Positions 8,384 through 19,640 of a stretch of 64,000 bases of DNA are shown piece by piece. The stretch lies in assembly GCF_005796185.1 (NCBI RefSeq), contig NZ_VAHM01000013.1, positions 1 through 64,000 on the forward strand. The letters are read 5' to 3'. Below the pieces are notes generated by a model, which was given only the letters and a program-made list of their open reading frames with translations, had not been told where the DNA came from and searched no databases. Both the position numbers and the translations under genes were made by a program. This stretch comes from Pseudarthrobacter sp. NamB4 (GTDB lineage Bacteria > Actinomycetota > Actinomycetes > Actinomycetales > Micrococcaceae). How positions within the stretch are numbered: position 1 is the stretch's first letter; each line of letters starts with the position of its first letter.

Positions 8384-9856
8384 TCATGCTGCGGCCGCCG
8401 CTGCCTGCCGAAGCCCCAGGGCCTGCCCAATATCGTTCGTGTCCGGCCTCTCCCCGTGCCCCAGATCCGACAGCGTCCACGCCATGCGAAGTACCCGATC
8501 GTAACCGCGGGCAGTCAGAACGCCACGCTCCAGTGAATGGTCCAGGATGCGGGTGACGGCGGGAGGCAGCCGCAGCTCACCCCGCAAGACACGCCCAGGG
8601 ACCTGCGCATTCGTCTCCAGCCCGTAGGGCCCGAGCCGCTCCAGCTGCCGAGCGCGGGCATCCCGCACACGCCGGGCGACGGTGGCTGTATCCTCCTCAA
8701 CCCCTGCCTGGCCAAAATCGGCGAGGGAGACTCTCTCCACCTGCAGCTGGATGTCCACCCGGTCCAACAACGGCCCGGACAGCCGGGCCATGTACCGCCG
8801 CCTCATCAGCGGCGTGCAGGTGCACTCCAACCCTTTTCCGGTGGCCTTGCCGCATGGACAGGGATTGGCCGCAAGGACCAGTTGGAACCGGGCGGGATAG
8901 GCGGCGGTGCCGGCAGAGCGGTGAATCACCAGTTCCCCGCTTTCCAGCGGCTGGCGCAGCGCGTCCAGCACGCGGCGCTCATACTCCGGCGCCTCGTCCA
9001 GGAACAGGACGCCACGGTGTGCCCGTGATGCCGCTCCCGGCCGGGGAAGCCCGGAACCGCCGCCGATGATGGCTGCGGCAGTCGCGGAGTGGTGCGGGCT
9101 TTCGAACGGCGGACGCCGGAGGAGCTGGACCGAGGATGACGGCAGTCCGCACAGCGAATGGATGGCGGTGACCTCCATGGACTCATGGTCACCCAACTCG
9201 GGCAACAGCCCGGGCAACCGTTCTGCCAGCATGGTCTTCCCGGCACCGGGCGGGCCGGTCAGGAGAAGATGATGTGCTCCGGCGGCGGCGACTTCCAGCG
9301 CGCGCCGGGCATCGCCCTGGCCCGAGACGTCAGCCATGTCCGGGCAGGTGCCGGTTTCCGCGCCTGCGTCCCCGGTGCTGTCCATGTCCTCGGGTTCGAA
9401 ATCCAGGACCAACTCCTGGGGGTCGGCCCCGAAATCAAGCGCCAGCCTCGCCAGGGTGCTGTACCCGCGCACATTGGCGTCCGGCACCAGCGCCGCCTCT
9501 GCCAGGTTTGCCTGCGCGACAACAATGTCCGGGTATCCGGCCCGTACCGAGGCCATGACGGCGGGGAGGACGCCCCTGACAGGGCGTAGCCTGCCGTCGA
9601 GACCCAGTTCGGCGATGAAGACCGTGCGCCCGGTGGGTTTGATGTCATTGGCGGCCCGCAGCACTGCCATGGTGACCGCCAGATCGAAACCCGAGCCCCG
9701 CTTGGGCAGTGAGGCAGGAATAAGGTTGGCGGTGATTTTCCGGCGGCTAAGGGGAATACCGGAGTTCTTGGCAGCGGAGCGGATGCGTTCCTTGGCCTCG
9801 TTGAGGGAAGCGTCCGGCAGGCCCAGGAGCACGAAGGCCGGAAGTGTTTGGCCGAT
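8384..9856 (-). pseudogene. comM: comM (YifB family Mg-chelatase-like ATPase), 3' part of a gene split by an insertion
   Basis: This holds residues 25-514 of ComM, a hexameric AAA+ helicase that promotes branch migration during natural transformation. Visible are the Walker A motif GPPGAGKT, the Mg-chelatase-type LFLDEAPEY Walker B, the NPCPCG segment and the C-terminal domain. The first 24 residues are missing here and lie at 19186-19284. The joint is at the 8-bp core TGGCCGAT (9849-9856). Rejoining gives VEVEADIGQTLPAF, the expected N-terminal sequence. Upstream of the joint the frame hits TAA inside the element. A GTG at codon 33 (9832) could restart a 482-residue truncated protein, but it would lack the conserved N-terminal strand pair and has no evident ribosome-binding site. 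Confidence 0.93.
9849..9856. other. attL core of the comM element
   Basis: TGGCCGAT, the left copy of the 8-bp sequence shared by the two junctions. Outward sequence (GGCCGGAAGTGTT) is comM; inward sequence (TCCTTACAATCG) belongs to the element. The exact strand-exchange point within the 8 bp cannot be resolved. Confidence 0.85.
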
Positions 9857-9872
9857 TCCTTACAATCGACAC

Positions 9873-11387
9873 ATGAAAAATTCGACCCCGAAACGCGCAA
9901 TATTGTATCTGCGTCTTTCTGTCTCGAAAGACGAGTCAACCTCGATCACCCGCCAGCGGCAGGAGCTAACCGCCCTTGCCAAGCGCGAGGAATGGACCAT
10001 TGTCGAAACTCTCACCGACGACGGCCTCAGCGGTGGCAAGCCCCGCGCCAACGCCGACCACGCCCTCGCCATGCTCCGGAAGAACCAAGCAGACGTAATC
10101 GCCGTCTTCAAGTTCGACCGCTGGAGCCGCATGGGCGCTCGCGCCGTGGCTGACCTTCAGGACGCGCTCGACGAACGCGCCGCCAAGGGCAACCCGGCGC
10201 TGTTCATCGCGCTTCAAGACGGCCTCCGCTCCGACATGACAAGTTGGGATATTCACGTTGCACTCACTGCGGCGCTTGGTCGCTCCGAGCGCGAACTGAT
10301 CCGCTCCCGCGTGAAGTCAGCCCGCAAGTACCAGCGCGAAGCACGTCGGCACTCCGGCATCCCGCCCTACGGCTACCGTCCCATCCCCCACCCTTCCGGC
10401 AAGGGCCGTGCTCTGGAACTTCACCCCGAGGAAGCTGCGCTCGTGCGCCGCATGGCGGACGAAGTCCTCTCCGGCGCAACCGGGTACGCCGTCGCTAAGC
10501 GACTGAACGCCGAAGGGATCAAGCCCCGGAGGGCGGCAAGGTGGAATGCCGCCACCGTCGCCGACCTGCTCCGCGGCGACGCAATCCTCGGATACATGAG
10601 CCACCGCCGCCCCGGCGACCCCTCCCGCGCAAGCCGCCCGCTCCTCGGCGAGGACGGCTTGCCTGAGCAGGTGTGGCCGGCAATCATCACGCCCGACGAA
10701 TCGGCGGAACTGCGGGCCCTCCTCTCCCGGCGCCCCGACTGGAACTCAATGCCCGGCGCTGGAAGGAAGCGCGCTTCTCGCCTCTTATCCGACCTCGTGG
10801 AGTGCGTCACCTGCGGAAGCACGCTCCGCGTGAATTACACCGACAAACTTAAGAACGGCACCCGCGCCGCCCGCTATGTCTGCTCCGCGAGCGCCGGTGC
10901 ATGTCCGAAAAAGGTAAGCATCCATGCCGTAATGCTGGAGGACTACGTCTCCAAGGAGTTCCTGGCCGTTGCTGGCGGAATGGAAGTCTTTGAGATCCGA
11001 GAGTCTAGGCGCGACACCGGGGAACTGGCGCAGGTCCAGCAGGCCATTACCGCCACGGCTGCGGATATGGCCATCCCTGGCGCTGACATAGCTGCCCTGG
11101 CTTCCCGGCTGACAGACTTGCACGCCCGCCGTGAAGCGCTGGAAGCCGTCCCCGTCGAAACCGTGGTCGAGTCAGTCAGCACCGGCGAGACGTTCGCCGA
11201 GGCATGGGAGAACCGCGACACTGCCGGACGCCGCACGCTCATCGCTTCAGTGTTGAACGGCCGAATCGTCGTAAACCCCGCCCCGCGAGGCACCCGCCAG
11301 ATTGAGGACTCCCGGCTCTACATTCCTTGGCGGTGGACGGCGCCCGATCTGGAAGCTGAGCTGGTTGACGCCGCGAGGGCGGACTGA
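9873..11387 (+). CDS. Large serine recombinase (integrase of the comM element)
   Basis: A 504-residue site-specific recombinase that would integrate and excise the element at comM. The N-terminal resolvase domain (residues about 8-150) has the nucleophile Ser16 in YLRLSVSKDES and the LTDDGLSGG and KFDRWSRMGA segments. The recombinase domain follows (PPYGYRPI; LNAEGIKPRRAARW). A zinc ribbon is formed by Cys311, Cys314, Cys337 and Cys344, and the C-terminal part is helical, rich in Glu and Arg. ATG 9873 is chosen because it begins the conserved domain and lies 17 bp from the attL core; the open frame runs further upstream into comM antisense sequence. This domain order is that of phage-type large serine integrases, which usually act on short attP/attB sites with a core of only a few identical bases, as seen here. 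Confidence 0.95.
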   Translation: MKNSTPKRAILYLRLSVSKDESTSITRQRQELTALAKREEWTIVETLTDDGLSGGKPRANADHALAMLRKNQADVIAVFKFDRWSRMGARAVADLQDALDERAAKGNPALFIALQDGLRSDMTSWDIHVALTAALGRSERELIRSRVKSARKYQREARRHSGIPPYGYRPIPHPSGKGRALELHPEEAALVRRMADEVLSGATGYAVAKRLNAEGIKPRRAARWNAATVADLLRGDAILGYMSHRRPGDPSRASRPLLGEDGLPEQVWPAIITPDESAELRALLSRRPDWNSMPGAGRKRASRLLSDLVECVTCGSTLRVNYTDKLKNGTRAARYVCSASAGACPKKVSIHAVMLEDYVSKEFLAVAGGMEVFEIRESRRDTGELAQVQQAITATAADMAIPGADIAALASRLTDLHARREALEAVPVETVVESVSTGETFAEAWENRDTAGRRTLIASVLNGRIVVNPAPRGTRQIEDSRLYIPWRWTAPDLEAELVDAARAD

Positions 11388-11563
11388 CGGACGCAGAGGA
11401 GAGACCCGACCACGCCCGCGACCGCATCTACGGCGGCGGCCAGCCGTTCGAGCTCGGCTACGAGCCAGACGCCGATGATTTCCGGCGCTGGCTTCTCGCG
11501 GGCGCCGAACGGATCGTCAAGGCCGAGGAGGATCGTGTAAACGACCCGCCGCCGAACGACTGA
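11384..11563 (+). CDS. Small acidic protein overlapping the recombinase stop (non-standard start)
   Basis: An open frame of about 59 residues follows the recombinase with a 4-base overlap (CTGA) and ends directly before a terminator. The translation is protein-like and acidic, with segments such as RIYGGGQPFELGYEP and FRRWLLAGAERIVKAEE. The only start available after an in-frame TGA at 11366-11368 is CTG 11384, so it needs either a CTG start or coupling to the recombinase. Not recognised. Its position suggests a small partner such as a directionality factor, but nothing in the sequence shows this. Confidence 0.4.
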   Translation: MTDAEERPDHARDRIYGGGQPFELGYEPDADDFRRWLLAGAERIVKAEEDRVNDPPPND

Positions 11564-11567
11564 GAAA

Positions 11568-11594
11568 AGCCCCGCCACCTTGGCGGGGCTATTT
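11568..11594 (+). terminator. Intrinsic terminator after the recombinase unit
   Basis: A perfect 10-bp stem AGCCCCGCCA/TGGCGGGGCT with a CCT loop is followed by ATTTT. It lies 4 bp after the small frame's TGA. Confidence 0.9.
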
Positions 11595-12196
11595 TCGTTC
11601 CGCATGAGCAAGACCGCCCGTTGGGGCAACCTTCTACGGTAGCGACAGAGGATTCATGAGCAAACAGGCGCGGCTGGCCGACTCCTCCCTTGAAAGGGTT
11701 TGAGGAGCCGACTTGATTCAGAGAAAAAAGTTGCCCTGGAAGCGAGCAAAAATGGCCCTCTGGCTCCCTCTGTATATGTAATCGGGACTTGCCGCCGCCA
11801 GCCCGCACCCACTAACGCCTTGTGCTTCCGTGCGGCGGCCAGACACTCGCCGCGCTGGTTTGGTTGAAGCTCGGCGCCTGTTGGAGAGCGTGTAAACGCA
11901 CGCCGAGGCGGGCGAGCCGCCCCTTTGCCAGCTTGTGCGTCGACCAAAGACGCCGACGATGGACGCCGACGAGGGACAAGGGAGGTGGCCCAAACGGGTC
12001 ACAGTGACGCTTCTACGTCTATCTCAATTAACCCCCTAAAAGGGTCTCTCTCTTATAGGTAAATGCAGAGAAGAAAGAAAACGTCACTGTGACCGCTTTG
12101 CGCCACCCAGCCCCTAAAACTTTGCAACCGGGCCGCCACCGGCGCCGACGTCATCGGCAACACCGCAACCGCCCCTGAAAGGAATCACACGGCACC
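11595..12196. other. 600-bp non-coding region of the element
   Basis: No convincing gene is seen on either strand; the minus-strand frames here lack ribosome-binding sites and protein-like composition. The stretch holds a small hairpin (CTCCTC at 11682 with GAGGAG at 11702), an AT-rich block with a purine run at about 12060-12081, and a 13-bp inverted repeat at 11997-12094. It ends with GAAAGGA, the ribosome-binding site for the gene at 12197. It could hold the promoter of the small-gene operon, a replication origin, or both. Confidence 0.6.
11997..12094. repeat. 13-bp inverted repeat flanking an AT-rich tract
   Basis: GGTCACAGTGACG (11997-12009) and its exact reverse complement CGTCACTGTGACC (12082-12094) face each other across 72 bp. 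Each arm contains GTCAC-A/T-GTGAC and so is itself a palindrome, which is the form of a dimeric protein site. The spacer is AT-rich for this genome and contains TTATAGGT and a GAGAAGAAAGAAAA purine run. Confidence 0.8.
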
Positions 12197-12574
12197 ATGC
12201 AACCCTTTGAACGTGACCTAGCCAACCTCCGCGACGGCCGCTACTACGCCAAGAAAGCCCAGAGGCCCGTCACGCTGAAGACTGCCTCAGGCGTAGCTCT
12301 GGAAATTCCTGGCCCGGCCGTCCTCGCAGAGGTCTACGCCCTGCCCTGGCTCCGCTCACGCGTCGACGCCTATCGCTCCGGCTCGGCCCTCTTGACCCGC
12401 CCCATCGATATCAGCGGAGAACCCACGCCCATTCACCAAGGCGAGCTCGCAAACGAGCTCCTGGCGGCTATCCAGCAGCTCCCGGAGCGCACCACCACCG
12501 AGGCTGGTCGGCCCTACCGCGACCTCGGCTCTACGCCACCGCGGCGTCACCCGGCGCTCGATCGGTCTACCTGA
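12197..12574 (+). CDS. Hypothetical protein of the element (possibly the N-terminal part of a frameshifted gene)
   Basis: A 125-residue frame with ATG 12197 and a good GAAAGGA ribosome-binding site 12 nt upstream. Segments such as FERDLANLRDGRYYAKKAQ and IHQGELANELLAAIQQLPE look like real protein, but the last 20 or so residues (STPPRRHPALDRST) do not. From about 12500 the coding signal moves to the frame used by the next gene, which reads RLYATAASPGARSVYLTD and continues without a stop. The two may therefore be one gene of about 260 residues broken by a frameshift or a sequencing error. No family recognised. Confidence 0.55.
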   Translation: MQPFERDLANLRDGRYYAKKAQRPVTLKTASGVALEIPGPAVLAEVYALPWLRSRVDAYRSGSALLTRPIDISGEPTPIHQGELANELLAAIQQLPERTTTEAGRPYRDLGSTPPRRHPALDRST

Positions 12575-12603
12575 CCGACGTCGTAACCTACACGCGGCGC
12601 TTA

Positions 12604-12984
12604 TTGCCGGAGTGGCGGGCCCCGAAACTCGCAGTGGAACGCCCGCCGGCCAAGACCGCCGCCGAGCGCAAGGCCGCCAGCCGTGCACATATCAGGCGTG
12701 AAGAGGAATTGTCAGCCCGTGACTGGCTGGAAGGCTTTCTTACCGGCTGGGATGGCGACACAGACGCCCCCGTCCCCGGCTCCCGCTGGGTTGCGTACGA
12801 GCTCTACGAACTAGCCGTAGAGGCCATCGAGGAGAGCGTCGAGCTAGAAGAGGAACGCATCGACGGCGGTGACTACCGCGTGCCCCGACAGCGCGTCTTT
12901 TACGCCGTCGCTGACACGATCCTCGGCCCCCGCCGCCGCGGCGCCCACGGCTCCGCAAGGGTCTACGTGCTCCCAGGCAAATGA
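12604..12984 (+). CDS. Hypothetical protein of the element (possible C-terminal part of the preceding frame)
   Basis: A 126-residue frame listed from TTG 12604, but protein-like sequence extends in the same frame back to about 12500 (VYLTDVVTYTRRLLPEWR), overlapping the end of the previous gene. There is no ribosome-binding site before TTG. The middle is strongly acidic (AVEAIEESVELEEERIDGGD) and the end (RVFYAVADTILGPRRRGAHG) resembles a small winged-helix or DNA-contact tail. Not recognised. It is followed after 59 bp by the coiled-coil gene at 13044. Confidence 0.5.
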   Translation: MPEWRAPKLAVERPPAKTAAERKAASRAHIRREEELSARDWLEGFLTGWDGDTDAPVPGSRWVAYELYELAVEAIEESVELEEERIDGGDYRVPRQRVFYAVADTILGPRRRGAHGSARVYVLPGK

Positions 12985-13043
12985 CCTCACCGACCTCCGG
13001 CGTAACCCCGCGCCGGAACCCTAAATAACCGAAAGGAACCCCC

Positions 13044-13799
13044 GTGAATATCACCCGAAACGACGTGACCAGCGACATTCTCACCAGTGGAGGTAAAGCT
13101 CAGATCAGGGCCTCCGCTGACCCCCTGACCGCAGAACAGCGCGCCCTCTCCCCCGCGCTTACAAAGGCCTATGCCGCCATTGAGGAACAAAACGCCGCCG
13201 CGCAGGCCCTGACGGACCGGCTCCGGAAAGTAATAGCCGAGAAGAACGTACTGTGGCGATCCCGCAACTCATACGAGCGGTACGACCAGGAGCGTGAAGA
13301 CGAGCTCAACCGCGAAATCCGGAACCTGGAACGCGCATTGCGACGCAATGAGAGCCTCGCGAAGGAACGTGCCATCGAATACCTCGTCCTCGCGTGGAAT
13401 GATCCTCACCGGGACCGCATGAAGGCGGAGGGCGCCAACCTAGCCCTGGAAGCCCACGCGGACGCCGTAGCCGCCCTCGCCGCCCTGGAGGAAGCCCTCG
13501 CCCGCCGCGAGAAGTTCTACGCTTCGGCCGGCCGTCCTGCTATCTGGCGGCACCACTCAGAAACCATGAGTGTCCCGCGCAACGCCGGGCAGGTCCACCT
13601 CGCCCATCAGCTCATCGCCCGCGAGGTCAACGAGTTCCCTGCCGCAGATCTCAAGACCGTCGTCGAGGGTGGCCAGGTCAAATCCCTGGCCGAAATCCAG
13701 GCCGAACAGCAGCAGGCTCTTACCGATGCCACCGCGAAGATGAAGGCCGCTGCCCGCGAACGCGACCGGCGCCGGGTAATCAGCGAGAGGAACAACTGA
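13044..13799 (+). CDS. Hypothetical coiled-coil protein of the element
   Basis: A 251-residue protein from GTG 13044, with GAAAGGA 8 nt upstream. It is mostly charged alpha-helix: residues about 45-125 have long runs of Glu, Arg, Asn and Lys with leucines at heptad-like spacing, and residues about 135-160 and 215-245 are again helical. It has no signal peptide, membrane segment or cysteine cluster. It sits in a plus-strand run with the small genes either side, all with similar GAAAGG-type ribosome-binding sites, so these are probably co-transcribed. No family recognised; a structural, scaffolding or DNA-associated role cannot be told apart. Confidence 0.65.
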   Translation: MNITRNDVTSDILTSGGKAQIRASADPLTAEQRALSPALTKAYAAIEEQNAAAQALTDRLRKVIAEKNVLWRSRNSYERYDQEREDELNREIRNLERALRRNESLAKERAIEYLVLAWNDPHRDRMKAEGANLALEAHADAVAALAALEEALARREKFYASAGRPAIWRHHSETMSVPRNAGQVHLAHQLIAREVNEFPAADLKTVVEGGQVKSLAEIQAEQQQALTDATAKMKAAARERDRRRVISERNN

Positions 13800-13876
13800 T
13801 GCCTGCGCCAAATTTGAAAGGCCGCCTCCTCTCCGCCACTGCCGCCAACCACTCCTCCGATACCCCCGAAAGGTAG
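13799..13876 (+). CDS. Possible 25-residue leader or coupling peptide
   Basis: ATG 13799 overlaps the previous stop by one base (TGATG). The frame is 25 codons and ends TAG at 13874-13876, inside which lies the GAAAGG ribosome-binding site of the next gene at 13880. Its main role may be to carry ribosomes through the gap. No sequence conservation can be judged. Confidence 0.25.
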   Translation: MPAPNLKGRLLSATAANHSSDTPER

Positions 13877-13879
13877 ACA

Positions 13880-14128
13880 ATGCCCTCCTACAACGTGGTC
13901 TCCGCGATTGTCTCGAAAGTCCTGGCGAACAGCCCAGATCTCCCCGCCGATTACCGCGACGCCGACACCCAAACTCAGCGCCGCGTCGAGCGTATGGCCG
14001 AAACCCAGAGCACCACTCCGGCGCAAATCTGGGAAGTCATCCGCGCCCAGCACGTCAAGGACAAGGCCGAGGCTAAGGGCGAAGGCGGATTCGACGCCGC
14101 TGCAATCGCCAAATCCGCCCGCCGTTAG
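13880..14128 (+). CDS. Small hypothetical protein of the element
   Basis: An 82-residue protein from ATG 13880, with GAAAGG about 7 nt upstream. The sequence is hydrophilic and helical (YNVVSAIVSKVLANS; RRVERMAETQSTTPAQIWEVIRAQHVKDKAEAKGEGG), with a lysine/arginine-rich end. No family recognised. It belongs to the plus-strand run 12197-14931. Confidence 0.6.
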   Translation: MPSYNVVSAIVSKVLANSPDLPADYRDADTQTQRRVERMAETQSTTPAQIWEVIRAQHVKDKAEAKGEGGFDAAAIAKSARR

Positions 14129-14250
14129 GCCCCTTGGCCCACATCAGAACTGAATAACCACCACGCCTCGAAGGCCGCCCGAACCACGCTACGGCGGCCT
14201 TCGGCGCGTAAATCCCCATTCCTCCGCACGAGAAAGCCCCCTGGATACAC

Positions 14251-14931
14251 GTGGAAATCACCCCAACCATCCCCGCCGACGTCTCTGCAACCATCGACCG
14301 CCGCGCTGCCCGCCGCATGGAGAAGCTAACCAGGTTCGCAAAAGATCCGGACTCGATTGGCAAGGTGCCCGCGCCGCTCCGTAAACCCTTCAACCTCAAA
14401 AGCTGGCGGGCCCTAGCTGAAGACGTCCGCCTCCAGCACCTGACCAAAAAGGTCTGTGAGCAGCTCACGGCCGAGGAACTAGCGAAGCTCCAGTACCGCC
14501 AGAAGCTGAACGCCGCCCGCGCTGCTGTCCGCGAAGCTGCGAGGAAGCGCCCCTCCCGCCCGCCGGTAAAAGCCCTTTCCCTACCTGAGGCCAAGGCGCC
14601 CACCCTGACAGTAGTGAAAGCCCCCTCACCAGCCGCTCCCCGGCGTCGTCTTGTAGCTTGCGTCGCAGGCTGCGGCGAGTTCCACCCGGCGACTTCACAT
14701 AAGCCGGTAGTCGTCTCCTGTGGCGGCTGGCTGGCAACCGGGAGGCGCAAGGCCCGCGACCTCTTCAGCGCGCAGAAGGAAGTAAGCCACGAAGGTACCA
14801 AATACCTGATTCGAGCACTTCGCCGCGAGGCTGAGGAAGCCCGCCGCCTCGCCGACTTCGGCGCCGAAGCCAAGAAGCAGGAGCGGAAGCCGAAGGCACG
14901 CCGCCGAGCAATCTGCTCGAACACTAGGTAA
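14251..14931 (+). CDS. Basic hypothetical protein of the element with a Cys pair
   Basis: A 226-residue, strongly basic protein from GTG 14251. The N-terminal half is helical (TIDRRAARRMEKLTRFAKD; ALAEDVRLQHLTKKVCEQL), a proline/lysine-rich linker covers about 100-130, and a small domain with CVAGCGEFHP and VVVSCGGW could bind a metal. The C-terminus is a Lys/Arg tail (KKQERKPKARRRA), suggesting nucleic-acid contact. No family recognised. It is the last gene of the plus-strand run and is followed by a terminator. Confidence 0.6.
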   Translation: MEITPTIPADVSATIDRRAARRMEKLTRFAKDPDSIGKVPAPLRKPFNLKSWRALAEDVRLQHLTKKVCEQLTAEELAKLQYRQKLNAARAAVREAARKRPSRPPVKALSLPEAKAPTLTVVKAPSPAAPRRRLVACVAGCGEFHPATSHKPVVVSCGGWLATGRRKARDLFSAQKEVSHEGTKYLIRALRREAEEARRLADFGAEAKKQERKPKARRRAICSNTR

Positions 14932-14943
14932 AAGGAAGCAACG

Positions 14944-14976
14944 GGGCGCCGTGCCCATCATGCGCGGCGCCCTTTT
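14944..14976 (+). terminator. Intrinsic terminator ending the small-gene run
   Basis: GGGCGCCGTGC (14944-14954) pairs with GCGCGGCGCCC (14962-14972) with one G-T pair and a 7-nt loop, followed by TTTT. It lies 12 bp after the stop at 14931. Confidence 0.85.
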
Positions 14977-15423
14977 CCCGCTGACCCCGGCCACCCCCTC
15001 CCCCTACCCCTCCCTCCGAGCTCGAAGGGGCACAGCGTCTCCCTGTTAGCGCAGGTCTGGGGTTTTAGAGGTCTTGCCCACCGAAAGGACCGCCGATCCT
15101 CCTCGCGCCCTGAGCAGTTCGCGCCCCGCTTTGTCGCCACGGACACCCCGGCGTGGAGGCCATGCCCGACGGCCACGAGCTAACCGCTCCCGGCGTCCCC
15201 TCCGGCGCCTGCATGGCCCTGCCCTCCTCGGCACCGACGGTCCACGTCGGCGAGCTCGCCCTCCTGCCCGACACCGCCAATTAACCGCAGCTTCGCCCCT
15301 GAACTAACAGAAATGCCCCTCACACGAACCCCAGATCTTAACCCCGAGGCCCGCCGAGAGAAGCTTCTTCATTGCTGACCTGCGCGATCCTCTGTTCGCG
15401 ATACTCCTGCATTGTGGAACCAT
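14977..15423. other. Non-coding stretch before the TIR-like gene
   Basis: About 450 bp without a convincing gene. Overlapping frames on both strands are arginine/proline-rich and have no ribosome-binding sites. It is C-rich at its left and more AT-rich towards 15400. It probably holds the promoter for the gene at 15424. Confidence 0.5.
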
Positions 15424-16329
15424 ATGGGAATGACCTCGAAATCTGCCCCGCCTGCGGCGCCGCTTGACGATCAGGCGCCAAAAAAGCGTAATTCAGTGTT
15501 TGTCGTATCGCCCATTGGCGCCCCAGGCACTGAAGCGCATCGCAAGGCGTCTTACGCGCTGAAGTACATCTTCCGGGAGGCCCTGAAGGGCGACGAATGG
15601 GACGTTCACCGGGCAGACGAGGGGGAGAGCCCGGACTCCATCGGTCAGCACGTAATTCGGAAGTTATGGGAGGCCGATCTGGTCATCGCGGATTTGACCG
15701 GTCATAACCCCAATGTTTTTTATGAGCTCGCGATCGCCCACGGTTGGCGGAAGCCGGTAGTCCACCTGATCGCCAAAGGGGAAACAATTCCCTTTGACAT
15801 TGTGGACCAACGCACCATCTTTTATGACATTACTGACTTAGCATCAGTGGAGGCGACGGTCGAAATTCTCCGTAAATACGCCGAGTATGCGATGGCACAT
15901 ACCGAAGAGCTCATAACCCCGCTGTCAAGCTTTGAGAAATTCAGCCACATACGGGCCGACGACAGCGACGGTGGCGTGGCGGTCGCGGAGGTATTGGAGG
16001 AAGTCGTATCACGGCTTTCCAGACTTGAGCACACAATTACCCGACAGAGTGGAACGCATGTGTTCCACGGCGACGGCGCTCCATCTACGTGGTTCCCCCC
16101 GGGAAGCGGCAAGACAGCGGAACTTGTGGAGGAATACGCAAAGCTGCTGAACATTGTCAACATGGTCGAGGCCGAGGATTCTATGACAGAGACTTCCAAA
16201 GCGGTGAAGGACGAAGTGCAACGAAGAATGGATGCCCTCCTTAAACCGTATCCCAAGGTTATGAAGCACCAGCTACATCGGCGGGCCGAGGAGCTATTGG
16301 CGGACGGCTTCGCTGAACAGAAGTCGTGA
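15424..16329 (+). CDS. Nucleoside 2-deoxyribosyltransferase/TIR-like (SLOG-type) protein
   Basis: A 301-residue protein whose first 140 residues form a recognisable nucleotide-processing fold: FVVSPIG at 26-32, an ADEGESPDSIGQHVIRKL helix, then ADLVIADLTG and HNPNVFYELAIAHG with Glu101 in the place of the catalytic Glu of N-deoxyribosyltransferases, and PFDI before a final strand. Related domains (SLOG/TIR-like) act as NAD- or nucleotide-targeting effectors or sensors in several immune systems; that is family knowledge, not shown here. The C-terminal half is helical and unrecognised. The start could also be ATG 15430 or TTG 15412; ATG 15424 has GGA 5 nt upstream. The gene is visibly more AT-rich than the core genome and is convergent with the minus-strand operon that follows. 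Confidence 0.75.
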   Translation: MGMTSKSAPPAAPLDDQAPKKRNSVFVVSPIGAPGTEAHRKASYALKYIFREALKGDEWDVHRADEGESPDSIGQHVIRKLWEADLVIADLTGHNPNVFYELAIAHGWRKPVVHLIAKGETIPFDIVDQRTIFYDITDLASVEATVEILRKYAEYAMAHTEELITPLSSFEKFSHIRADDSDGGVAVAEVLEEVVSRLSRLEHTITRQSGTHVFHGDGAPSTWFPPGSGKTAELVEEYAKLLNIVNMVEAEDSMTETSKAVKDEVQRRMDALLKPYPKVMKHQLHRRAEELLADGFAEQKS

Positions 16330-16475
16330 AGGCCGAAATTGCGGCCTCCTCGTCTAAACGCTCGCCTTCCTTGTGCGCCAGCCGGAGCGCCACGCCGACA
16401 GCGAAGATCGTCTCGATCGCGGCCGCTAGTTCGGCAATATGCCCCAGTCCGGCGCGGTGAACAGTTCCCAAATAT

Positions 16476-17102
16476 TCACCCGCAAAACCTCGTCCGTGCA
16501 GCGGCGCCGACAGCTTCGGCGTCAGCATACATCCCGTCCCCGAGCACGATGTTGCACCATCGGTGGGCGGTCCGGAGATTCTCCGGATCGTCGTCACGTC
16601 CGAACACAGCAATGGACGCAATATGGTCCAGCGTCGGATACCTGTCGTCGGACGGCCTGGCGTCAGGATCGGTAGGAAGCCCGCAGATTTGGCAAATGTA
16701 GTTGTCCCGCTCCAGCACCAACTTCCTATGCTTGGTGTGACCGCTGGATGATCCGCGCTTGCGAGCAGAAGGCGGGACCGACAGAACATCGGTAATACCT
16801 TTCCGGCGCTTGCAATGGGCGCACCGGCAGTCATCCGACCGTCCCCTCTTGTCCAGAACTGCACGACGGCAAACCTCGTGTTCCTTGACGAAGTCTGCCC
16901 GCGACTTGGCTGCCTCATGGGCCTCAGACCAGTAATAGATCTGGCAGCCATAGCAGAAGCCCAACGAGCTGGCCGCCGCCCGCCTCATGGCCCCGCAAAG
17001 GTTCGAGCAGTAGTCTCGGCTCCTCTGGTGGGACTCAAACTCGATGCCGCACCCTTCGCAAATTACCTGCTCACGAAAGGGCGGTCCTGGGGGGCGGGGC
17101 AC
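16476..17102 (-). CDS. HNH endonuclease with N-terminal zinc fingers
   Basis: A 208-residue protein. The C-terminal half is a classic HNH nuclease: Cys137 and Cys140 in YICQICG, Asp159-His160 in LDHIASI, Asn175 in PENLR, His180, and Cys183-Asn184 in RWCN. The N-terminal half has several cysteine pairs (Cys15/Cys18, Cys32/Cys36, Cys50/Cys53, Cys92/Cys94/Cys97) that probably bind zinc and contact nucleic acid. The start is GTG 17102, which shares its G with the TAG stop of the HIRAN gene and has a GGAAAGG/GGCGGAG ribosome-binding site. An upstream in-frame ATG (17168) would overlap the previous gene by 67 bp. It is the last gene of the four-gene operon and the most likely DNA-cutting effector. 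Confidence 0.88.
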   Translation of the reverse strand: MPRPPGPPFREQVICEGCGIEFESHQRSRDYCSNLCGAMRRAAASSLGFCYGCQIYYWSEAHEAAKSRADFVKEHEVCRRAVLDKRGRSDDCRCAHCKRRKGITDVLSVPPSARKRGSSSGHTKHRKLVLERDNYICQICGLPTDPDARPSDDRYPTLDHIASIAVFGRDDDPENLRTAHRWCNIVLGDGMYADAEAVGAAARTRFCG

Positions 17103-17725
17103 TACTCCGCCTTTCCTACCGTCTTGGCAAACGACCTGAGCTTCGGAATTGCAGGAAGGTCCACCCACATGCGGATCGAGTTCGGCGCTGGCGCCGTGCC
17201 GCTGACCCGGTAGGCGCCGAACCCAAGCTCGTCAAAGATGGGAGACAGGGCCGCAGCCTTCGCCTCCGACAGGTGACCTATCTTCCGCCCCTTGCCGTAG
17301 ACGGCGACGGCGTTCGCATCCCACTCATTCTTCGGCTCGCGGACAAGCAAGTACTCATTGCCACCGTGCTTGTATCGGCCTGCGTCGCTGACCCAGAACG
17401 CCGAGCCGACGATGCGGAATCGGCTGGACGGAAGCTCACGAAGGTCGAGGATAAACACCTTTGTATCGTCGAGCGTGACCTTCTTAATGCTCGCGGCCTT
17501 CGGCGTAAGCTCCCGCTCGGGCTCAGCCGCCGCCTCTTCAGCAGTGACGCTAGGCGCCAGCGGCGGCGCTTGTGGCTCCGGCGAGGTAACAGGGGCGTTC
17601 ACAGCCACCGCTTCCCTCGGTGGTTGCGTCACCGCCACGGCAGGCTCATCCTCACGCCGTTTCGGCGCGTCTATGTCCTGATCCACGCCCTTCAGCCAGC
17701 CGGTTAGCTTCTTCATCATCCCCAT
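17102..17725 (-). CDS. HIRAN-domain protein
   Basis: A 207-residue protein. Residues about 103-190 match the HIRAN domain: RFRIVGSAFWVS, LLVREPKNEWDANAVAVYG, KIGHLSEAKAA and a final FGAYRVSG strand. HIRAN domains of Rad5/HLTF bind 3' ends of single-stranded DNA, and bacterial versions occur beside nucleases and helicases. Residues 20-75 are a proline/alanine/glutamate-rich linker. The start is ATG 17725; the open frame extends to 17836 into the previous gene, and ATGs at 17719 and 17716 are also possible. It lies 19 bp after the HEPN-like gene and overlaps the HNH gene by one base, so HIRAN and HNH are probably made together as a sensor/nuclease pair. Confidence 0.82.
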   Translation of the reverse strand: MGMMKKLTGWLKGVDQDIDAPKRREDEPAVAVTQPPREAVAVNAPVTSPEPQAPPLAPSVTAEEAAAEPERELTPKAASIKKVTLDDTKVFILDLRELPSSRFRIVGSAFWVSDAGRYKHGGNEYLLVREPKNEWDANAVAVYGKGRKIGHLSEAKAAALSPIFDELGFGAYRVSGTAPAPNSIRMWVDLPAIPKLRSFAKTVGKAE

Positions 17726-17744
17726 GGGGGAAGCGTAACAGCGG

Positions 17745-18512
17745 CTATGACCCTTGCAGCGACTTGATAAGCTTCTCCGCTTCCTCGATGCCCGGCGGCA
17801 ACAAACGGAGGGTGCTGTCAGCCTCGTCGAACTCAATCCACCGGGCCTTATGCAGTGGCCTCAGCGTCTGATTCCGCAGGTTGTGCTTGTTGCTGTGCTC
17901 CATCCAACGGATCACTTCACTTTCAGTCGCCTCGGTAACGCCGGCCAGAAGCAGCAGCAGTTGCTCCTTACGCGAGAGCCCTGGCTGGAGAACCCGCTTC
18001 TTGTCGCCGCGCTGCCACACCAAGGCGATCTGCCGCTCCACCAACTCCTCGACCACGTCAGCCGCCTCCTGCGTGCTGCACGTGTGAAGGAGCCTGACGA
18101 GCTCGGCGACGAGCCACTTACTCATGTAGAGGACAACGGTAGCGTCCATCTGGTTGGGGTCGACGTCGCCCCCGGCGTGCCCGACGCCGCGGTTGTTCCT
18201 TATCTCGTACAACCCCACCAGCATCCGAGGAATCTGAATCCTCGCCGACCGCACCGCCTGCGGGTACTTCTGTTCCAGCCCTTGGCACGCCTGAACCATG
18301 TTGCGGGGCTTCACGGCACGTGCTGAGTAGGTCCCTGACAGGTAGCCGTCGACGGCAGTAAAGACCGCTTCGCACAGCTTGCCGCCGTTGAGCTCCGACG
18401 GCTCCCACCTGTGCTGCTCGAAGTTAGCAACAACCTCGGTGAACGCCGAGAGCACATCAGTCGCCAGCCCGACGGGAAGGACGGACAGCGCTCCCTTGGC
18501 GTCAACCGGCAT
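17745..18512 (-). CDS. HEPN-like protein with R-x6-H motif and winged-helix-like C-terminus
   Basis: A 255-residue, largely helical protein. It contains EIRNNRGVGHAGGD, in which Arg105, Asn106 and His112 (counting from ATG 18512) form the RN-x-H arrangement typical of HEPN ribonuclease active sites and of Abi_C-type abortive-infection proteins. A helix pair follows (MSKWLVAELVRLLHTC; VVEELVERQIALVW). The C-terminus (NLRNQTLRPLHKARWIEFD...LLPPGIEEAEKLI) looks like a winged helix. The start is ATG 18512, which overlaps the previous gene by 11 bp; TTG 18530 is an alternative with AAGG upstream. The HEPN assignment is by motif only; a fold prediction would test it. Second gene of the operon. Confidence 0.65.
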   Translation of the reverse strand: MPVDAKGALSVLPVGLATDVLSAFTEVVANFEQHRWEPSELNGGKLCEAVFTAVDGYLSGTYSARAVKPRNMVQACQGLEQKYPQAVRSARIQIPRMLVGLYEIRNNRGVGHAGGDVDPNQMDATVVLYMSKWLVAELVRLLHTCSTQEAADVVEELVERQIALVWQRGDKKRVLQPGLSRKEQLLLLLAGVTEATESEVIRWMEHSNKHNLRNQTLRPLHKARWIEFDEADSTLRLLPPGIEEAEKLIKSLQGS

Positions 18513-19047
18513 TCTCGACCATTTCTTCAACAGCCTTCAACCCCGGCTGGGTCAGCTTCAGAACCCGCCGCGTCTTGTCGGCAGCACCGCCACCCAACTG
18601 CGCCACGAACTTAGGCGACTTCGCCTTCATCCGATCCACTACCTTGTTGAGGCCCGGAATGTCCTCGCCTTGGTCCCTAAGGAGTTTATTGATGTCACCG
18701 TTGCCGAATGTCTCCTTTGCCAGCTTCACTTGCAGCCAGTAGGCCGCGACAAGAAAACGCTCCTGCGAGCCGGGCGGGCTGCAGTGGCTGTAGAGCTCCC
18801 CAAAGTGCTGGAAGCGATCCGCAATGGGGACTTCGGGGTCTGTCGCCTCCAACTCGCCAACAAAAACGGGTGATGCAGGCTCTGGCTCGTTCTGCTGCCG
18901 CTGCTGTGGAGACCGCCCCATCGTGAAATCTGACGCCGCCGCGTACTTCGCATACGCCCATCCCAGCACCCGCGCCCGGGTCTCGTCGTCAAGCGAAACG
19001 AAGGCGTCTTCGATGGCCCCCATAGCTTCGATCTCAGCACTTGGCAT
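18502..19047 (-). CDS. Unrecognised first gene of the four-gene operon (winged-helix-like C-terminus)
   Basis: A 181-residue protein. The N-terminal part (EIEAMGAIEDAFVSLDDETRARVLGWAYAKY) is a helical segment seen in many actinobacterial hypotheticals, followed by a polar Gln/Glu linker. The C-terminal half (QERFLVAAYWLQ; GDINKLLRDQGEDIPG; LNKVVDRM; VLKLTQPGLKAVEEM) resembles a winged helix-turn-helix. The start is ATG 19047, with GGGGA 5 nt upstream; ATG 19059 is also in frame. Its stop overlaps the next gene by 11 bp. It may be a regulator, adaptor or antitoxin for the HEPN-like partner, but this is inference from layout. The promoter must lie within 19048-19204, beside the attR core. Confidence 0.65.
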   Translation of the reverse strand: MPSAEIEAMGAIEDAFVSLDDETRARVLGWAYAKYAAASDFTMGRSPQQRQQNEPEPASPVFVGELEATDPEVPIADRFQHFGELYSHCSPPGSQERFLVAAYWLQVKLAKETFGNGDINKLLRDQGEDIPGLNKVVDRMKAKSPKFVAQLGGGAADKTRRVLKLTQPGLKAVEEMVENAG

Positions 19048-19185
19048 CTGTATCCCCATTTGATCGATCCGGCGGACCCCTCCGGCCCCTACCACAAGTT
19101 TACCGGCGGGTAGCGGATAGCACGCGGGAAACGAGCAAGAAACTACACATATGTCATTCCCCCGGTAGCGAACACACCTCATGTG

Positions 19186-19284
19186 TCATTTGCTGGACAA
19201 CGGCTGGCCGATGTCGGCTTCCACTTCGACCAGGTATCCGTTCAGCCCCACCAGGGCAATGGAGTAGGTACGGCCCAGGGGCAT
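19186..19284 (-). pseudogene. comM: comM, 5' part of the split gene
   Basis: ATG 19284 begins MPLGRTYSIALVGLNGY and VEVEADIGQ, the conserved ComM/YifB N-terminus. After Gln27 the frame enters the element and ends PLSSK-stop at 19186, so only a 32-residue peptide is made. The ATG overlaps the yraN TGA by one base (TGATG), showing the original coupling. The matching downstream part is at 8384-9856. Confidence 0.93.
19205..19212. other. attR core of the comM element
   Basis: TGGCCGAT, the right copy of the shared core. To its right the sequence is comM codons 24 and lower (GTCGGCTTCC, antisense); to its left (GGACAACGGC) it is the element. Two near-identical 10-mers, ATATGTCATT and ATGTGTCATT, lie within 60 bp on the element side and may be recombinase or regulator contacts. 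Confidence 0.85.
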
Positions 19285-19640
19285 CACCCCACCCCCCTGA
19301 GATGTTCCACCAGGGGGGAGCCGCCGCCGTCGTCAATCACCGCGATGACATCAACACGCCGCAGCGGCATCCCCAGCTCGCGGTCACGGCACCACGCGGC
19401 ACCAAGCCGGTGAAGCCGGGCGAGTTTGCCGGGGCCGACGGCTTCGAACGGATGGCCGTAATCCAGGGAACGGCGGGTCTTTACTTCAGCGATAACCAGG
19501 GCGTCGCCGTCAAGGGCAACAATGTCTATTTCACCTTCGGTACACCGCCAGTTGCGCTCCACCACCAGCATGCCAAGGGTTTCCAGATAGTCAGCGGCCA
19601 AGTCCTCGCCGTGCCGGCCCAGCAGGTCTTTTGATTTCAT
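19284..19640 (-). CDS. yraN: YraN/UPF0102 family nuclease-like protein
   Basis: A 118-residue protein of the UPF0102 family, with the restriction-endonuclease-like core visible as GRHGEDLAADYLE, EGEIDIVALDGDALVIAEVKTR. The conserved Glu/Asp-x-Glu-x-Lys pattern (EIDIVA...IAEVKTR) suggests a nuclease fold, but cellular function is not established. A strong ribosome-binding site (GGAGGT) precedes ATG 19640. It is the first gene of the ancestral yraN-comM-dprA operon, and its stop overlaps the comM start. The 119 bp upstream hold no gene. Confidence 0.9.
   Translation of the reverse strand: MKSKDLLGRHGEDLAADYLETLGMLVVERNWRCTEGEIDIVALDGDALVIAEVKTRRSLDYGHPFEAVGPGKLARLHRLGAAWCRDRELGMPLRRVDVIAVIDDGGGSPLVEHLRGVG

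Follow-up and report, generated by a model that had tools for sequence, protein, structure and literature searches.

Two small overlapping genes, here called A and B, lie within a 64,000-nucleotide stretch of Pseudarthrobacter sp. NamB4 (the window), and a sequence-only reading of this DNA had noticed in B a motif like the active site of HEPN nucleases. The question raised by this locus is whether B is a HEPN ribonuclease, and if so, what its upstream neighbor does. Proteins of the HEPN superfamily have metal-independent RNase activity with the active site at the dimer interface, and RNases of this kind are found again and again in immune systems, from CRISPR-Cas13 to eukaryotic RNase L. We think it reasonably probable, based on predicted structure and comparative analysis, that A and B would form a mobile HEPN RNase module of the abortive-infection or toxin-antitoxin kind and represent an undescribed family. 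The features on which this reading draws are listed in Table 1.

Table 1. Positions of the A-B genes, their predicted domains and residues, and the element that carries them (coordinates of the window)
Feature	Position	Strand	Basis
Integrated element, about 9.36 kb, splitting comM (ComM/YifB), with A-B at one end	9856..19212		Junction core and rejoined frame
Serine recombinase of the element	9873..11387	+	Pfam Resolvase (2.4e-19), Recombinase (6.9e-13), zinc ribbon (2.9e-7)
Gene B, 255 aa, predicted RNase effector (HEPN and winged helix)	17745..18512	-	ATG 18512, stop 17745
MarR-like winged helix, C-terminal, B residues 175-255	17748..17990	-	VIA-align Z about 10
HEPN domain of B (predicted), about residues 8-146	18075..18491	-	AlphaFold2 domain model, Foldseek, VIA-align
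Putative catalytic motif R105-N106-N-R108-G-V-G-H112	18177..18200	-	R105, N106, R108, H112 invariant in 12 relatives
Invariant Glu48, helix 2, acidic position reported in HEPN domains	18369..18371	-	Alignment and PMC3710099
Gene A, 181-aa partner (A-type), C-terminal half predicted winged helix	18502..19047	-	11-bp overlap with B; A-type relatives at other B loci

The translation of B (18512-17748, minus strand) begins MPVDAKGAL and contains RNNRGVGH at residues 105-112, where Arg105-Asn106 and His112 had been claimed to lie. This is the single match to R[NDH]x(3-5)H in the whole of B, but the motif pattern also occurred in 11% of composition shuffles of the protein, and the frequency of the motif was therefore discarded as evidence by itself. 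The overlap of A with the start of B had also been read correctly (A ends with TGA at 18504-18502 and B begins with ATG at 18512-18510), and A most likely starts at the ATG at 19047. With E allowed up to 10, neither gene had a match in Pfam, PADLOC, or NCBIfam, sequence searches of the PDB returned nothing, and the PHROG rows for the two genes held just two weak families of unknown function.

The motif gains its significance from conservation, because R105, N106, R108, and H112 are invariant in all 12 complete sequences of the B set (B and 11 further ones, sampled from parts of the collections). Relatives from named organisms were found in Homoserinibacter (L002), Brachybacterium (L003), Crossiella (L004), Breznakiella (L005), and on a Natronomonas plasmid (L007), and the other complete ones come from the genomes behind L006, L010, L014, L015, L030, and L031; an IMG/VR contig (L008) has a partial relative at its end. 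Their identity to B ranged from 22 to 64%, and with members in actinobacteria, a spirochaete (Breznakiella), and a haloarchaeal plasmid they span two phyla of bacteria and one plasmid of archaea. Fourteen positions were the same in every complete sequence (E48, R96, Y102, R105, N106, R108, H112, D123, W133, E137, R140, L187, L188, and G241), and these include only one of the six histidines of B (H112) and one of its nine asparagines (N106). If the 14 invariant positions were scattered randomly, the chance of three named positions all falling among them would be about 1.3e-4. B was carried by only 2 of 296 genomes of the class, and the family is thus rare there. Two candidate loci were rejected as relatives: L011, where DVDPNQMD in a phage contig matched by chance, and L020, a match in a GC-rich open reading frame without support. 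The literature searched held no paper naming the A-B family, which seems to be a hitherto undescribed group of self-defense or toxin modules of bacteria with exchanged partner genes.

AlphaFold2 modeled full-length B as a helical N-terminal domain followed by a C-terminal winged helix (pLDDT 83.6, pTM 0.60). The N-terminal domain was also predicted and searched alone, since winged helices filled the whole-protein search of PDB structures, and this model reached a pLDDT of 85.2 and a pTM of 0.83. The modeling covered monomers, five sequences underlie the model, and confidence is low in the H112 loop. HEPN domains are described as four-helix up-down folds that often carry an insert between helices 2 and 3 and that have an R-x4-6-H motif at the end of helix 3 or the start of the loop to helix 4, a polar residue after the arginine, and an acidic residue in helix 2 that often, but not always, lies within Ex3[KR] (PMC3710099). 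The domain model has helices at 14-32, 43-59, 72-82, 88-106, 119-143, and 147-161, of which 72-82 takes the place of the insert and 88-106 ends at R105-N106, as had been proposed from the sequence, with the next long helix at 119/124-143. The motif itself reads R105-N106-x5-H112 (R-x6-H) with the polar N106 after the arginine, and the invariant E48 lies in helix 43-59, although B lacks the following K/R of Ex3[KR]. Because this layout and the invariant residues fit the published description point by point, we assigned the predicted domain to HEPN.

Structural comparison agreed with the assignment. Foldseek placed the sacsin HEPN domain at the top (E 0.23, prob 0.95; neither this E value nor that of any other HEPN match is significant), and 12 of the top 20 rows were HEPN entries, with HepT, AF0298, AbiV, and TT1696 among them. 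With VIA-align, AF0298 (2hsb) came first (Z 9.8, 123 aligned residues, 4.0 A); behind it came FAT-type bundles and other HEPN entries, Csm6 among them. A search of a viral structure library gave nothing meaningful. With HEPN domains as the best matches, beside the invariant predicted catalytic residues, the helix layout, and the helix-2 acid, the HEPN-like character claimed for B is supported. The winged-helix look of its C-terminus was likewise supported, many chains of the MarR family and of AspA aligning with some 75-80 of its residues (Z about 10).

Two other readings of these domains have to be weighed. The N-terminal domain could be a different four-helix bundle, for example a FAT-like one, in which the motif is coincidental. 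Helical bundles match one another easily, and the FAT, GIT1, and p130Cas bundles scored Z 8-9.6 against 9.8 for HEPN, so that the structural scores by themselves would not decide for HEPN. However, HEPN domains head the Foldseek list, and several HEPN-specific features coincide in B (the acid in helix 2, the insert helix between helices 2 and 3, and an R-polar-x5-H where helix 3 ends, the residues concerned being invariant), which makes this reading very improbable. It is a little less improbable, but still quite unlikely, that B is a transcriptional or RNA-binding regulator in which the HEPN domain just dimerizes or binds RNA, a role proposed for MtlR, leaving the function to the winged helix. 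Such a role would suit a protein that ends in a MarR-like winged helix and has a winged-helix-like neighbor, yet a non-catalytic HEPN domain would be expected to lose its motif (PMC3710099), whereas R, N, and H never change in a protein that varies over most of its length, and the family is rare, patchy, and found in mobile and defense settings.

The neighbor of B had been likened to toxin-antitoxin or effector-adaptor partners on the basis of its overlap, and it proved to be a conserved and tightly coupled one. Of the 12 complete loci, 11 carry a gene of about 180-240 aa immediately upstream of B, with an overlap of 1-26 bp or a gap of at most 6 bp between the two. The Natronomonas plasmid relative (L007, 4782-5654) is the one with no recognizable partner upstream; a small 82-aa open reading frame follows it. 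The partners fall into several types. Those of the A-type occur in the window and at L002, L004, L006, and L010; those of the C-type at L003, L004, L014, L015, L030, and L008; and those of the D-type at L005 and downstream of B at L002, while the partner at L031 is of a further type whose possible likeness to the D-type was not significant. Two different partner genes are thus present both at L002 and at L004, where the gene order is C, A, B. Over the C-terminal half, A-type and D-type profiles show a weak relation (P 0.0026), and comparison of the A-type with the C-type profile gave no detectable relation. We infer a winged helix in A from its sequence and from one A-type relative that weakly matches PadR (E 0.0016, below the cut-off).

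Among 197 scanned genomes of the class, the A-type turned up at just two loci, both of which also have B; a C-type search of 197 class genomes, a set without a positive control, found nothing. The A-type partners diverge faster than B, with the window and L002 sharing 28% identity in A and 64% in B. The C-type gene at L004 is 53-56% identical to those at L014 and L030 and 35% identical to that at L003, whereas B of L004 is only 27% identical to B of L014 and L030 and 57% identical to B of L003. C-type genes are therefore close where the B genes are distant, indicating that they have been exchanged between B lineages.

In the window, both junctions of the integrated element carry an identical 8-bp core (ATCGGCCA), and joining the flanks restores the ComM reading frame. 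The joined flank sequence is contiguous in 17 genomes of the same genus and matches in two pieces in G000. In another actinobacterial genome (L025, about 9000-10215), a type I restriction-modification locus holds the A-B pair between its hsdS and hsdR genes in antisense orientation, and at L026 the pair lies about 3 kb from AbiH. The viral contig at L008 has the pair beside a Resolvase gene, and the region at L002 contains a Prim-Pol gene and a tape-measure-like gene (the latter recognized by eye, with no Pfam match) and is prophage-like. At L014 and L015, B lies among ordinary chromosomal genes. The restriction-modification, AbiH, Resolvase, prophage-like, and comM-element settings are typical of mobile defense cargo.

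In the HEPN module that we favor as the simplest account, B would be an endoribonuclease, probably dimeric, that cuts RNA without metal through R105, N106, and H112, perhaps with E48 and R108 joining in catalysis, and its winged helix may bind nucleic acid or a partner. A, encoded upstream in an overlapping gene, would be produced by translational coupling, and it could bind B, keeping it inactive like an antitoxin and/or bearing a surface that senses phage or another trigger. Once released or activated, B would cut cellular RNA, stop growth, and abort infection; alternatively, arrest by B might serve maintenance of the element. The RNase activity, dimerization, inhibition by A, trigger, and anti-phage role are steps that we infer. 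We favor this scheme because the predicted catalytic residues are invariant in 12 relatives of such wide distribution, because the predicted layout and the best structural matches are those of HEPN, because a partner lies upstream in nearly all of them and the A-type keeps to B, because of the mobile and defense settings, the faster divergence of A, and the C-type exchange, and because there are precedents in HepT/MntA (PMC7641770), Tha (PMC11087260), and the type IX retron (PMC13405049). It is weakened by the non-significant Foldseek E values and the close scores of FAT-type bundles, by the small alignment behind the model and its uncertain H112 loop, and by the partnerless archaeal relative and the predicted nature of the winged helix in A.

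Another account would dispense with phage sensing. A and B could be a plain type II toxin-antitoxin addiction pair stabilizing the mobile element, in which A is antitoxin and autorepressor and B is the RNase toxin. The two genes are small, adjoin, and overlap, with the partner upstream, and they are carried on mobile elements; HEPN toxins with a dedicated neutralizer are known (PMC7641770), and winged-helix-like partners could autorepress. Nevertheless, the pairs of different partners at L004 and L002, the partner exchange, and the placement within a restriction-modification locus point to a sensing or defense role as well, and the region upstream of A showed no sigma-70-like site and no strong palindrome, and hence no clear promoter or operator. 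We regard this account as rather unlikely. A further reading, put forward only tentatively, is that the loci make up a modular immune family: a single HEPN-winged-helix RNase would work with small partners that can be exchanged (A-, C-, D-type, and others, at times two per locus) and that serve as swappable sensors for different invaders. Such partners could reveal how a single killing enzyme becomes connected to different triggers. The family is absent from the libraries searched, and its predicted active site is a clear target for mutation. It is small, reaches across the two bacterial phyla and the archaeal plasmid, and lends itself to simple tests in laboratory strains.

Several known systems resemble the A-B pair in part. 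Like HepT/MntA, in which a HEPN toxin has a dedicated neutralizer (PMC7641770), it is a small two-gene operon with a HEPN RNase, here a predicted one, and HepT chains were among the structural matches. Unlike MntA, A is not a nucleotidyltransferase by Pfam, having no match there, and the partners of the relatives matched no nucleotidyltransferase either; in addition, B has an extra winged helix and an R-x6-H spacing in place of the R-x4-H of HepT. Tha shares a HEPN effector on mobile elements in a prophage-encoded defense (PMC11087260), and its DALI Z of 9.9 to 5yep may be set beside the VIA-align Z of the B domain, 9.8 to 2hsb and 7.3 to 5yep. However, the HEPN domain is C-terminal in Tha, and its inhibitor Ith is encoded antisense rather than by an overlapping upstream gene. 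AbiV (PDB 9bj6 and 9bj7) is a HEPN RNase of a two-component anti-phage system and was among the Foldseek matches, but it typically lacks the histidine of the motif (PMC3710099), and no common partner was detected.

In the type IX retron, which also includes a reverse transcriptase and a non-coding RNA, a HEPN RNase is held in complex with a separately encoded winged-helix protein (PMC13405049), and here too a predicted HEPN RNase is encoded with a separate, predicted winged-helix protein. The retron HEPN protein lacks the canonical motif that B has, and B contains a winged helix of its own. No reverse transcriptase was recognized among the element open reading frames scanned or read, and no Rfam family reached its gathering score in 9500-19500, a search that an uncatalogued non-coding RNA would escape. 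By motif register, the closest Pfam family appears to be Abi_C (PF14355), which shares R-N-x5-H; the two motifs coincide in the profile alignment of B with two Abi_C members, but this alignment is weak (hhalign P 0.011, probability 3.8%), too weak for membership. B itself has no Pfam match, no Abi_C match was obtained in the ten members scanned, and the domain is C-terminal in the Abi_C members fetched and N-terminal in B.

Other genes accompany the pair on the element. One (15412-16329, plus strand) has a TIR/nucleoside-deoxyribosyltransferase-like N-terminal region that matches a PADLOC TIR effector (E 3.4e-10) and PHROG 3634 (E 8.7e-41), and is possibly a second defense effector. Directly downstream of B, an HNH endonuclease gene (16476-17168, minus strand) and a HIRAN-domain gene (17102-17722, minus strand) overlap each other. 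Upstream of A, near the attachment site, there are two 11-bp direct repeats, a possible operator or recombinase arm site, at 19148-19158 and 19180-19190 (CATATGTCATT / CATGTGTCATT).
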